DNA from: a virus
DNA length: 25,435 nt
Virus record (IMG/VR): IMGVR_UViG_3300038825_000793
Location: 9,678-35,112 of that record
Reading direction: 5' to 3' (one strand)
Positions 4,257 through 10,239 of this stretch are shown here, in pieces. Position 1 is the first letter of the stretch; each line of letters starts with the position of its first letter. The position numbers and the translations under genes are program-made. The notes beneath the pieces were generated by a model. It had not been told where the DNA came from, did not search any database, and worked only from the letters and a program-made list of their open reading frames with translations.

Positions 4257-4592
4257 ATGAGAATACAAATAGATGGATGGGAGTTTTTTGATTCAGTAAA
4301 GGCATATCTATCAGATAAGCATAATTATGAATTAGATACTGATGAGAAAGAGGTACATTTTAACTTTGATATAGATGCAAAACCCAACTTATATCGTTAT
4401 AAAAAAGATACGAAGTGGAACGATGAAAAAGTTGAGTTTGATATAATCAATGAATATGAAGTGGACGGTCTTTATGTTAAGAGGAAGAAAAAAGGTTCTG
4501 AGAAATATCAGTATGTGAAACTAGATGAAGATTGTTATCCAACAATGAAAAGTATCCATGAAGATACTGAAGTCAATATTAACATTTATTAA
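4257..4592 (+). CDS. Hypothetical phage protein (111 aa)
   Basis: An acidic, lysine-rich soluble protein with no recognised family. AAAGGAGATAATA just upstream gives a strong ribosome-binding site for the ATG at 4257. The sequence looks beta-rich (EVHFNFDIDAKPNLYRYKKD, YEVDGLYVKRKKKGSEKYQY). It sits between the initiator and the primase-helicase, so a replication accessory role is possible but not shown. Confidence 0.6.
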   Translation: MRIQIDGWEFFDSVKAYLSDKHNYELDTDEKEVHFNFDIDAKPNLYRYKKDTKWNDEKVEFDIINEYEVDGLYVKRKKKGSEKYQYVKLDEDCYPTMKSIHEDTEVNINIY

Positions 4593-4988: not shown

Positions 4989-6664
4989 GTTTTGAAGAGG
5001 TAGGTATATATCTCAGGAATACATCAGGGCAGGAGAAAACCAAATGCCCTGAGTGTTCCCCTAATAGGAGGAAGAAGGCTGACCCTTGTCTTAGTGTTAA
5101 TATTGATGAGGGTATTTGGAAGTGTCATCATTGTGGTTGGAAGGGTTCATTAAATAAAAAGAATGATACTTATATTCCACCTCCTCCTATTGTAAAGCCA
5201 GAGCCTCCTAAAACAGATATCCCAGATAAAGTATATCAATGGTTTGAAGATAGAGGTATATCTAAGCCTGTAGTTGATGATGCTAAAATAGGTTATGAAA
5301 ATAGATGGATACATTTCCCCTTTTATAAAGATGGTGAAGTGGTTAATATTAAATCAAGAACTGCTGATAAGCAATTTAGACAAGCTAAGAATGCTGAGAA
5401 GTGTTTTTATAGATTTGATGTTATGTCTGGTATGGAAACTATTATAATTACAGAAGGCGAAATGGATGCTTTAAGCTTAGTGGAAGCTGGTTATAATAAC
5501 GTGGTGAGTGTTCCAGATGGTGCTATTGCTCCTAATTCAAATCCAAGCGATAGAAAGTTTAGTTATTTATTATCTGCTGAAGAGCATTTGATGAACGCTA
5601 CTACAATTATATTGGCAATGGATAATGATTCTTCTGGTAATGCAATGCGAGAAGAACTATCAAGAAGGATAGGTCGTGAAAAGTGCTATCGTGTTAATTA
5701 TCCAGAGGGTTGTAAGGATATGAATGAAGTCCTTATAAAGCATGGTGAAGATAGATTGACTGAGATTATAACAGATGCTCATCCTTATCCTATTGATGGT
5801 GTTGTATTAATAGATGATGTGTTAGAAGATGCTATTGATTTATTAAACACTCCAGACACAAAAGGATTAACCACTGGTTGGGAAGCATTAGACGAATATT
5901 ATCGTATATCTCCATCAGAAGTTACAATCGTTACTGGTGTCCCTAATATGGGTAAATCTGAGTGGATGGATGCCTTAATGATTAACTTAATCCAAGACAA
6001 TGGGTGGAAGTTTGGTATATTCTCTGCTGAGAATTTTCCTGTCAAACACCATTTATTAAAGCTTGTAGGTAAGTTCACTAATAAGCCATTCTGGGGTAGC
6101 GATAGGATGGATGAAAAAACTGCCAGAAATTCAATGAATATTCTTAATGAGCATATTAAGTTTATTGGCACTCAAGAAGATACAGTAACCATGGAGAGTA
6201 TATTAGACCAAGCAAGAATACTAAATTTTAGATATGGTTTAAATGGATTGGTAATTGACCCTTGGAATACTATTGAACATAAATTTAGAGATGGAGAAAA
6301 TGAAACCAATTATGTATCCAGAATATTGGCAAGCCTTAATACTTTTGCTAAGATACATGAGATTCATATATGGGTAGTAGCACATCCTAGAAAAATGGAA
6401 AGTGATAATCATAGGAAGCCTGTTGTCCCTACTCCATATGATATATCTGGTAGTGCTAATTTTTATAACAAAGCTGATAACTGTATAACTGTACATAGAC
6501 ACAAAAGTGAAGATGAAGATTATGTTGGTATTCATGTCCAGAAAGTGAGATTCCAATATAAAAATGGTACAACAGGTACAGGTAAACTAAGCTATAATGT
6601 AAGGAGTGGAAACTATTTTGAATATTTCTCAGAAGACAAAAAAACATTATTTGGAAAGATGTAA
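4985..6664 (+). CDS. Bifunctional DNA primase/helicase
   Basis: A 559-residue fusion like T7 gp4: it should make RNA primers on the lagging strand and unwind the fork 5' to 3' as a hexamer. A zinc ribbon (C21/C24, C47/C50) is followed by a proline-rich linker. The TOPRIM domain carries E157 in TEGEMDA and D213/D215 in AMDNDSSG. The RecA-like helicase domain carries Walker A GVPNMGKS (318-325), a catalytic-type glutamate E350 (FSAEN), Walker B D425 in GLVIDPW and H467 in VVAHPRK. All key residues are present. The start overlaps the preceding stop (ATGA). No separate helicase or primase is seen in the window. Confidence 0.92.
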   Translation: MSFEEVGIYLRNTSGQEKTKCPECSPNRRKKADPCLSVNIDEGIWKCHHCGWKGSLNKKNDTYIPPPPIVKPEPPKTDIPDKVYQWFEDRGISKPVVDDAKIGYENRWIHFPFYKDGEVVNIKSRTADKQFRQAKNAEKCFYRFDVMSGMETIIITEGEMDALSLVEAGYNNVVSVPDGAIAPNSNPSDRKFSYLLSAEEHLMNATTIILAMDNDSSGNAMREELSRRIGREKCYRVNYPEGCKDMNEVLIKHGEDRLTEIITDAHPYPIDGVVLIDDVLEDAIDLLNTPDTKGLTTGWEALDEYYRISPSEVTIVTGVPNMGKSEWMDALMINLIQDNGWKFGIFSAENFPVKHHLLKLVGKFTNKPFWGSDRMDEKTARNSMNILNEHIKFIGTQEDTVTMESILDQARILNFRYGLNGLVIDPWNTIEHKFRDGENETNYVSRILASLNTFAKIHEIHIWVVAHPRKMESDNHRKPVVPTPYDISGSANFYNKADNCITVHRHKSEDEDYVGIHVQKVRFQYKNGTTGTGKLSYNVRSGNYFEYFSEDKKTLFGKM

Positions 6665-9201: not shown

Positions 9202-9237
9202 TGTTTATTGATTTTACAAAAGTAAGAAGGAGTGATA

Positions 9238-9468
9238 ATGTTTAAAATAAAAGAACTATTTAATTTGATAACAGGACTATGGGCAGATACAGAAGCTGAA
9301 TTAAGCTCATTATCCAGAGAAGATTTAATTCGCCTTCTTAATAATATCAGTAATAAAGTAGATGGAATGGTAGATATTATGAATGACTTTTCAGTCTGCT
9401 CTCATTGTGATGGAGATAGGATTAGTATATGCGAACCATGTCTAGACGATATGGAAGAAAATAATTAG
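9238..9468 (+). CDS. Hypothetical zinc-ribbon-like protein (76 aa)
   Basis: AAGGAG at 9227-9232 lies 5 bases before the ATG at 9238; an in-frame GTG at 9232 is inside that site and is rejected. The N-terminal part is helical (ELSSLSREDLIRLLNNISNK), and the C-terminus carries two CxxC pairs (CSHC and CEPC), a likely zinc-binding hairpin. Its first 12 bases are identical to those of the gene at 8941 (ATGTTTAAAATA), possibly by chance. The structured RNA begins 4 bases after its stop. Confidence 0.55.
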   Translation: MFKIKELFNLITGLWADTEAELSSLSREDLIRLLNNISNKVDGMVDIMNDFSVCSHCDGDRISICEPCLDDMEENN

Positions 9469-9471
9469 TAT

Positions 9472-9660
9472 TATGGGGGCATCCGATAATAGATTAAACA
9501 GGTATTGTTTTAATTATAAAATCGAGTGTTTGCTGTGGTTGGCTTCCCCATATAAATTTGAAGTCAGAAGTGCCAATTAACAATAAACAAGTGCTGATTA
9601 GCACGGTGTTTGATTTGAATACCTTAAAGTAAGATTGGTGGAGGCTACCATGACTTCGAA
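9472..9660 (+). ncRNA. Structured RNA / cis-regulatory leader candidate
   Basis: This gap can fold into two domains. Domain 1: TATGGGG (9472-9478) pairs with CCCCATA (9546-9552), enclosing CGAT/ATCG (9484/9521) and an inner hairpin ATTAAACA (9493-9500) with TGTTTTAAT (9506-9514, one bulged T). Domain 2: TTTGAAGTCA (9557-9566) pairs with TGACTTCGAA (9651-9660, one G-U), closing three hairpins: GTGCT/AGCAC (9591-9604), GGTGTT/AATACC (9605-9623, 7-base loop) and TGGT/ACCA (9636-9650). The last loop holds GGAGG, and the closing stem buries the AUG of the leader ORF at 9650. I match it to no known riboswitch or tRNA. Confidence 0.5.
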
Positions 9661-9688
9661 AACATTAGTAATAAGTAATAAAAAGTAA
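9650..9688 (+). CDS. Putative 12-residue leader peptide
   Basis: ATG at 9650 lies 5 bases after a strong ribosome-binding site (GGAGG, 9640-9644) and encodes MTSKTLVISNKK. Its TAA overlaps the ATG of the nuclease gene (TAATG at 9686-9690). The nuclease has no ribosome-binding site of its own, so its translation should depend on this short ORF. The site and start codon are both part of the proposed RNA structure. A -1 slip on the final AAA AAG would alternatively fuse the peptide to the nuclease. Confidence 0.4.
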   Translation: MTSKTLVISNKK

Positions 9689-10032
9689 TGCAGTATAATA
9701 ATGATTTTAAATATGATTTAAAAGTAGGGCAAGCTAAAGAAAAAGAGCTTGGCGACATAATCAATGATAAAACCATAGAAGTTAAGTATGATTTACAGTC
9801 GCTGTCTACTGGCAATGTATATGTAGAATACTTTAGCAGGGGTAAGCCAAGTGGGATAAGTACTTCTGATGCTGAATATTACTGTTTTTGTCTTGGAGAG
9901 ACATACCATTTAATAAGCACAAAAACTTTAAAAGAGAGATGTAGAGTATATCTTACCACCTTAAGAGATAAAGTAGGTGGGGATAATAATACATCTAAGG
10001 GTATATTACTGCCCTTGTCTGATTTGTTTTAA
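9688..10032 (+). CDS. PD-(D/E)XK-like nuclease
   Basis: 114 residues with a likely restriction-endonuclease fold: a helix with K17-E18-x-E20, D27, the signature E31-V-K33, and E47 in GNVYVEYFSRGKPSG. A further SDAEYYCF strand and ISTKTLKE segment follow. This spacing resembles small phage nucleases and Holliday-junction-resolvase-like proteins that cut branched or damaged DNA; the exact substrate cannot be told. Translation is probably coupled to the leader peptide at 9650. The neighbouring NinB-like and HNH genes support a recombination role. Catalytic-residue assignment is inferred from the motif pattern. Confidence 0.6.
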   Translation: MQYNNDFKYDLKVGQAKEKELGDIINDKTIEVKYDLQSLSTGNVYVEYFSRGKPSGISTSDAEYYCFCLGETYHLISTKTLKERCRVYLTTLRDKVGGDNNTSKGILLPLSDLF

Positions 10033-10062: not shown

Positions 10063-10239
10063 ATGAAAGAAAAAAGACTAGATGAAAAAACCTTCTTAGA
10101 AAAAGGTGTCATGATAAAGCCATTGGTAAGTAAGTGCAATTTTTGGAGAGTGAATCTTGAAGATGAAATAACAATTCAATTGATGATAAAAGAAGATGTG
10201 GAAATTGCCCTATCTAATAAGTGGTGTGAGTTGGTATGA
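10063..10239 (+). CDS. Hypothetical phage protein (58 aa)
   Basis: A short frame supported by AAGGAGAAG before the ATG at 10063 and by an ATGA overlap with the next gene. The product is charged, begins MKEKRLDEKTFLEKGVMIKP and has two cysteines and two tryptophans. The middle looks beta-like (NFWRVNLEDEITIQLMI). No family recognised. Confidence 0.55.
   Translation: MKEKRLDEKTFLEKGVMIKPLVSKCNFWRVNLEDEITIQLMIKEDVEIALSNKWCELV

Follow-up and report, generated by a model that had tools for sequence, protein, structure and literature searches.

Architecture of the 219-nt gap

The DNA analysed here (hereafter the window) is a 25,435-nt stretch of an uncultured, probably marine phage (IMG/VR record IMGVR_UViG_3300038825_000793, positions 9,678 to 35,112). 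Within it, a 219-nt gap lies between ORF 9232-9468, which encodes a small CxxC...CxxC protein, and ORF 9688-10032, which encodes a PHROG 13596 protein; both genes are on the + strand, and the stop codon of the first lies 3 nt before the stem that we call P1. Comparison with related phages indicates that positions 9472-9660, read on the same strand, encode a two-domain structured noncoding RNA. An earlier note on the window had proposed that the gap folds into a stem-loop followed by a multi-branched domain with a 10-bp closing helix, and our folding confirmed this arrangement: the gap reached -52.2 kcal/mol, compared to a mean of -41.7 for shuffled sequences (z -2.58), and 2 of the 200 shuffles were equally stable. 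Taken alone, domain B was the more stable (z -3.50, 1/200 shuffles) and domain A the weaker (z -1.98, 8/200).

Domain A (9472-9552) is closed by P1, formed by its 5′ strand TATGGGGG (9472-9479) and its 3′ strand TCCCCATA (9545-9552); the first stem-loop of the gap is closed by TATGGGGG/TTCCCCATA. The 3′ strand is followed by an A-rich flank. Inside P1, the domain consists of a variable interior and, just before the 3′ strand, the motif GTGGTTGGC (9535-9543; family form GGNUUGGC, core UGGC), which is invariant in our alignment A3 and varies in the wider family. Domain B (9557-9660) is multi-branched. Its closing helix, TTTGAAGTCA (9557-9566) with TGACTTCGAA (9651-9660), was found as predicted and contains one G-U pair. 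The helix encloses a long hairpin, GTGCCAATT...GATTAGCAC (9570-9604), with a C-A mismatch in the window and in its relative L082; a second hairpin, GGTGTTTGATTTGAATACC (9605-9623), for which we infer that GATTTGAAT...AAGTAAGAT with a GAA/AGUA pairing could be an alternative; and a 3′ hairpin, GGTGGAGGCTACC (9637-9649), whose loop does hold the GGAGG (9640-9644) that had been pointed out. Likewise, the AUG of a 12-codon ORF (9650-9688) sits at 9650-9652 and overlaps the closing stem, and this ORF ends in TAATG, overlapping the start of the next gene. A loop-loop pairing between GGUUGGC of domain A and GCCAAUU of domain B is possible in the window; we discarded it, as it is not kept in the relative L085.

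The stability of the gap as a single sequence is only modest. The best stem of the window is not unusual per 800 nt of AT-rich DNA (27 of 60 shuffles were as good), and in most genomes the best stems per 800 nt did not exceed those of shuffles, so that single-sequence stem strength was rejected as proof. We regard the structure as real because comparison among relatives shows it.

Searches against known RNAs returned nothing that would name the element. Across the whole window, no Rfam 15 family matched at its gathering cut-off; a permissive search of positions 9300-9800 stayed empty up to E = 5, and the relatives gave nothing meaningful, which agrees with the proposal that the element matches no known riboswitch class; ARAGORN found no tRNA or tmRNA. 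Translational bypassing, a T-box and a kink-turn, considered by eye only, were dismissed for want of a continuing ORF or a consensus.

Close relatives and the neighbouring PHROG 13596 gene

Close relatives of the window were chosen by their upstream protein, and hence not by the RNA. The four genomes obtained (L082-L085) have DNA identities to the window of 98% (L082), 89-90% (L083 and L084) and 79% (L085), and all align with it through the whole element to position 9667. Over the element, identity to the window was 197/199 in L082, 180/198 in L083 and 168/194 in L085 (99%, 91% and 87% of the aligned positions), compared to third-codon identities in the neighbouring genes of 0.87-0.96, 0.70-0.87 and 0.62-0.65, respectively. 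The element thus changes less than the third codon positions of its neighbours, and this constraint supports the expectation that so large a structured gap has a function.

Base changes among these sequences also bear on the fold. In an alignment of five sequences (A1), three pairs were changed on both sides. All three belong to domain B: the closing helix, which becomes TTTGAGATCA/TGATCTCAAA in L085, accounts for two and the long hairpin for the third. As many double compensations arose in just 2 of 500 shuffles, and slid controls gave 0-1; when the partner strand was slid, pairing fell from 96% to 33-48%. One-sided changes mostly produced G-U pairs (six pair positions, compared to two with C-A), a preference that fits pairing in an RNA of the + strand. 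Together with the recoding of P1 across the wider family described below, the covariation favours the structure that had been proposed.

The earlier note went further and suggested that the structured RNA and the leader peptide encoded by the 12-codon ORF regulate the gene that follows, labelled a nuclease. In its favour, the TAATG couples the two reading frames and, as we accept, this gene starts in the window genome with no good ribosome-binding site before it. The close relatives nonetheless largely refute this model, which we now hold to be very unlikely: past position 9667, L082-L084 skip to the gene found at window position 10236 (PHROG 6802) and L085 to another ORF, so that the RNA is present where the nuclease gene is absent. 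The leader peptide is not conserved either. In L082-L084 the mini-ORF has 8-9 codons and its 3′ part resembles the Shine-Dalgarno site (AAAGGA) of the next gene; the tail of the 12-codon version is special to the window, and GGAGG reads GGCAG in L085.

The nuclease gene itself is a cassette inserted just downstream of the element in the window genome and does not belong to the element. The small gene that follows (near 10064-10239) is part of the same insertion; in L096, L097 and L099 a homologue of it precedes the PHROG 6802 gene. Homologues of the nuclease occur widely in other phages, where different genes stand upstream. We read 80 loci around such homologues, and the element was in none of those inspected; the R1 covariance model (see below) found none in a sample of the loci. 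In related phages, a homologue directly follows the RNA in L165 and L225 and lies ∼1.2 kb before it in L103, L111-L113, L115, L116 and L121. Most relatives have no nuclease gene beside the RNA; the co-occurrence expected of a translational switch was not borne out, and the view of the neighbouring nuclease as the RNA's target has to be corrected. As for the label, the protein has a conserved E-x-K pattern, although no library names it a nuclease: PHROG 13596 is of unknown function, and the protein of ORF 9688-10032 had no Pfam or PDB match. Separately, another variable stem-loop (GGTCGGGG...CCCCTTCC), whose interior differs strongly, lies directly before the PHROG 13596 homologue in L067, L078 and L080.

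A family of recoded stems at one genomic position

Domain A has relatives well beyond these genomes. The wider family was first found by reading upstream of PHROG 6802 homologues, and it now comprises more than 50 viral contigs, which are not all independent, given that IMG/VR contigs overlap between samples and partly stem from the same phages. Its hallmarks are the closing stem, the (U)GGNUUGGC motif just before the 3′ strand and the A-rich flank. We built two covariance models, R1 from members of the TTGCCCC/GGGGCAA type and R2 from members of the TATGGGG/CCCCATA type; the window scored 85.7 bits with R2 (9465-9566) as part of the training set of that model. When 84 sources (815 kb) were searched, R1 gave 35 and R2 18 matches at E ≤ 1. 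Every one of them was on the + strand, and those in the contigs inspected lay at the syntenic place. Records searched as a whole had one strong match each, without a further copy elsewhere in the genome. Neither model recovers the members of the other; synteny, the shared motif and the flank are what suggest that the two stem types belong to one family.

Two scans relied on the 3′ half only. The first (GTGGTTGGC[N]TTCCCCATA), over 2.9 million viral contigs, returned 21 contigs, and TATGGGG lay 54-67 nt upstream in 21/21; the second returned nine contigs, seven of them family members. These scans and the relatives selected by protein are the part of the sample free of a pairing requirement, with which many other members were first picked. 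Besides the two types above, the stems were recoded between genomes as TGCCCTAT/ATAGGGCA, ATGCTCCA/TGGAGCAT and GGGGATAT/ATATCCCC. L122 and L128, missed at first by the models and the descriptor, carry new stems at the same place (ATGCTCCAAG/CTTGGAGCAT and GGGGATATC/GATATCCCC, respectively), as does L167 (AATGCCTT/AAGGCATT), which had seemed to be without the element; L095 still appears to be so. Across 13 members with 8 distinct stems, P1 pairing was kept in 104/104 pairs, a count for which the complementary stretch was taken as the 5′ strand; the shuffled mean was 53, and none of 2000 shuffles did as well. Within this conserved frame the interior is hypervariable (64-153 nt). The evolutionary pattern is an unusual one: stems are recoded base pair by base pair, and a short motif is retained.

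The place of the element is as constant as its frame. There is a single domain A per genome; it lies on the coding strand, right after the stop codon of recombination-module genes, and usually starts a few bases from that codon or overlaps the last codons of the preceding gene. The syntenic place is occupied in L082-L085, L094-L110, L221 and L104. Stem covariation and conserved position, the two marks expected of a new structured RNA family, were thus both found, and we propose the element as such a family. As a separate observation, a 93-nt span of the NinG/HNH coding sequence (e.g. L124, L132, L139 and L140) holds a recurring stem, CGTTGGATGCCATGT/GCGTGGCATCCAATG, stronger than nearly all shuffles.

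Outside uncultured phages the element was sought with little return. Three versions of it had no nucleotide match in cultured phages, where the nearest PHROG 6802 homologues are only 31-35% identical. Among 85,000 bacterial species genomes there were three pattern matches, which we took as chance: they had no family-like context, and their R1 score was at noise level or absent. The element thus gives a lineage of uncultured phages a well-supported family of structured RNAs that is missing from Rfam and from cultured phages and found in no convincing cellular genome. Structured RNAs in marine phages as such are already known: the manA, wcaG and PhotoRC-II motifs, among the closest known systems, come mostly from marine metagenomes and cyanophages and were described as accompanying particular gene families (PMC2864571). 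Our element, by contrast, is not tied to the next gene and has no Rfam match.

The genes 3′ of the element differ between genomes and include PHROG 6802, small membrane proteins, basic peptides and PHROG 13596-like nucleases. This weighs against the possibility that the element is a riboswitch- or thermometer-like 5′ leader gating whichever gene follows, in the window through the GGAGG and AUG of domain B. A start codon does lie 17-35 nt after P1 in many genomes, and in the window GGAGG is in a loop and AUG in a stem, as such a leader would have them. Yet the downstream genes are unrelated, most of them are preceded by a Shine-Dalgarno site of their own that lies clear of the stems, and GGAGG is lost in L085; nor is there the consistent link to a downstream gene that marks a metabolite riboswitch. 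We consider a leader of this kind unlikely. In the space between RNA and next start, L118, L120, L143, L147, L149 and L153 have a short palindrome, GTTAA...TTAAC, right before the Shine-Dalgarno site; its centre varies, and it could be a hairpin or an operator.

Candidate roles of the element

Since the following gene differs from one relative to the next, a role on the transcript or in trans is favoured over control of one gene's translation, and the best reading of the locus would be a phage RNA element that does not depend on the gene after it and is no switch dedicated to the nuclease. The form that we judge most likely, at about an even chance, is that of an early-operon element acting in cis as nascent RNA. 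The element would be read from the coding strand within the transcript of the early/recombination module and, given its position, would fold as soon as the ribosome has left the upstream gene. Its closing stems may serve to display an unchanging motif (for domain A, GGNUUGGC) in surroundings that vary freely, and its action, presumably as RNA, would target the transcript or a trans-acting partner rather than the translation of any single gene. In cis, such a role could concern elongation/antitermination, mRNA processing or mRNA stability.

In function, the nearest precedent is the put RNA of the lambdoid phage HK022, a folded nascent RNA in early transcripts that acts in cis on pausing and termination, irrespective of the gene downstream (PMC9378689). 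Our element would resemble put as a folded cis element of a presumed early transcript for which the next gene is irrelevant. Unlike put, it lies mid-operon, after recombination genes, there is no known sequence link between the two, and its action on RNA polymerase would be hypothetical. Position and gene independence fit a put-like element; transcription is presumed, and the 11 promoters found in the region do not stand above chance (8.6 expected). A clear intrinsic terminator (AAAGCCCCTATTAATTTAGGGGCTTTTTTT) was noticed elsewhere in the window, between early ORFs at ∼1399-1431.

The main rival to a cis nascent-RNA element is a processed one: the element would be excised or separately transcribed and act in trans as a phage small RNA, with the hypervariable interior as its target-specific part. 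Noncoding RNAs encoded between phage genes are known among phage-derived small RNAs (review PMC12197685), and ours, known here from sequence, would be alike in this respect. The irrelevance of the next gene, the conserved frame around an interior of such variable length and the tandem second modules with variable loops described below would all suit a small RNA. On the other hand, a search near the element revealed neither a promoter nor a terminator of its own, and P1 often overlaps or abuts the upstream stop codon, so that the element looks built into the operon. We hold this as a tentative possibility. An RNA fixed at one place regardless of the next gene is a good candidate for a cis transcription element or a host-redirecting small RNA.

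The location inside a recombination-gene module also invites the idea that the inverted repeats act at the DNA level, as a replication origin or as a packaging or recombination site. We find this exceedingly improbable: G-U pairs are preferred over A-C, the structure is multi-branched with a conserved single-strand motif, and GC skew, by which we sought an origin, follows the coding strand with no switch at the element.

Domain B of the window type was seen only in the close relatives of the window, and several other genomes have a further structured module 3′ of domain A. One kind, in which a CANUA...GACC pair is conserved and the apical loop hypervariable, occurs in L136, L137 and relatives, L225 and L228, where its closing stems are recoded as GATAGGGAA/TTCCCTATC, GGTAGGAGA/TTTCCTACC, GGCAGAGA/TCTCTGCC and GGTGAGAA/TTCTCACC. 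It stands in tandem after domain A in L136 (5771-5841), L137 (5598-5670), L149 (5632-5678) and L228 (497-557), and in L225 on the minus strand, near 4445-4490 of the reverse complement. By analogy, its AGUA/GAC form resembles the bulged-G element of the 23S rRNA sarcin-ricin loop. More speculatively, and in our view rather doubtfully, the gap could be one form of an 'RNA island' of this phage lineage, made up of one to three structured modules that can be exchanged (domain A with GGNUUGGC; elsewhere a domain B with CANUA/GACC in a recoded stem) and that would act, through an as yet undescribed mechanism, to control either the early transcript or a process of the host.

Two further observations concern these modules. 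In L137-type genomes (e.g. L137 near 5560-5597), CACTAA in the loop of domain A and TTAGTG at the 5′ edge of the second module have a perfect 6-bp complementarity, also present in L167 and not in L146, which might form a pseudoknot or a switch. Finally, the same kind of second module, as CACUA...CGACC with the closing stem TGCAAGGGA/TCCCTTGCA, is found by itself in L181, a related phage (∼12526-12564, minus strand; also in L185), where it occupies a 76-base gap that separates two small early ORFs at a distance from the domain A locus.
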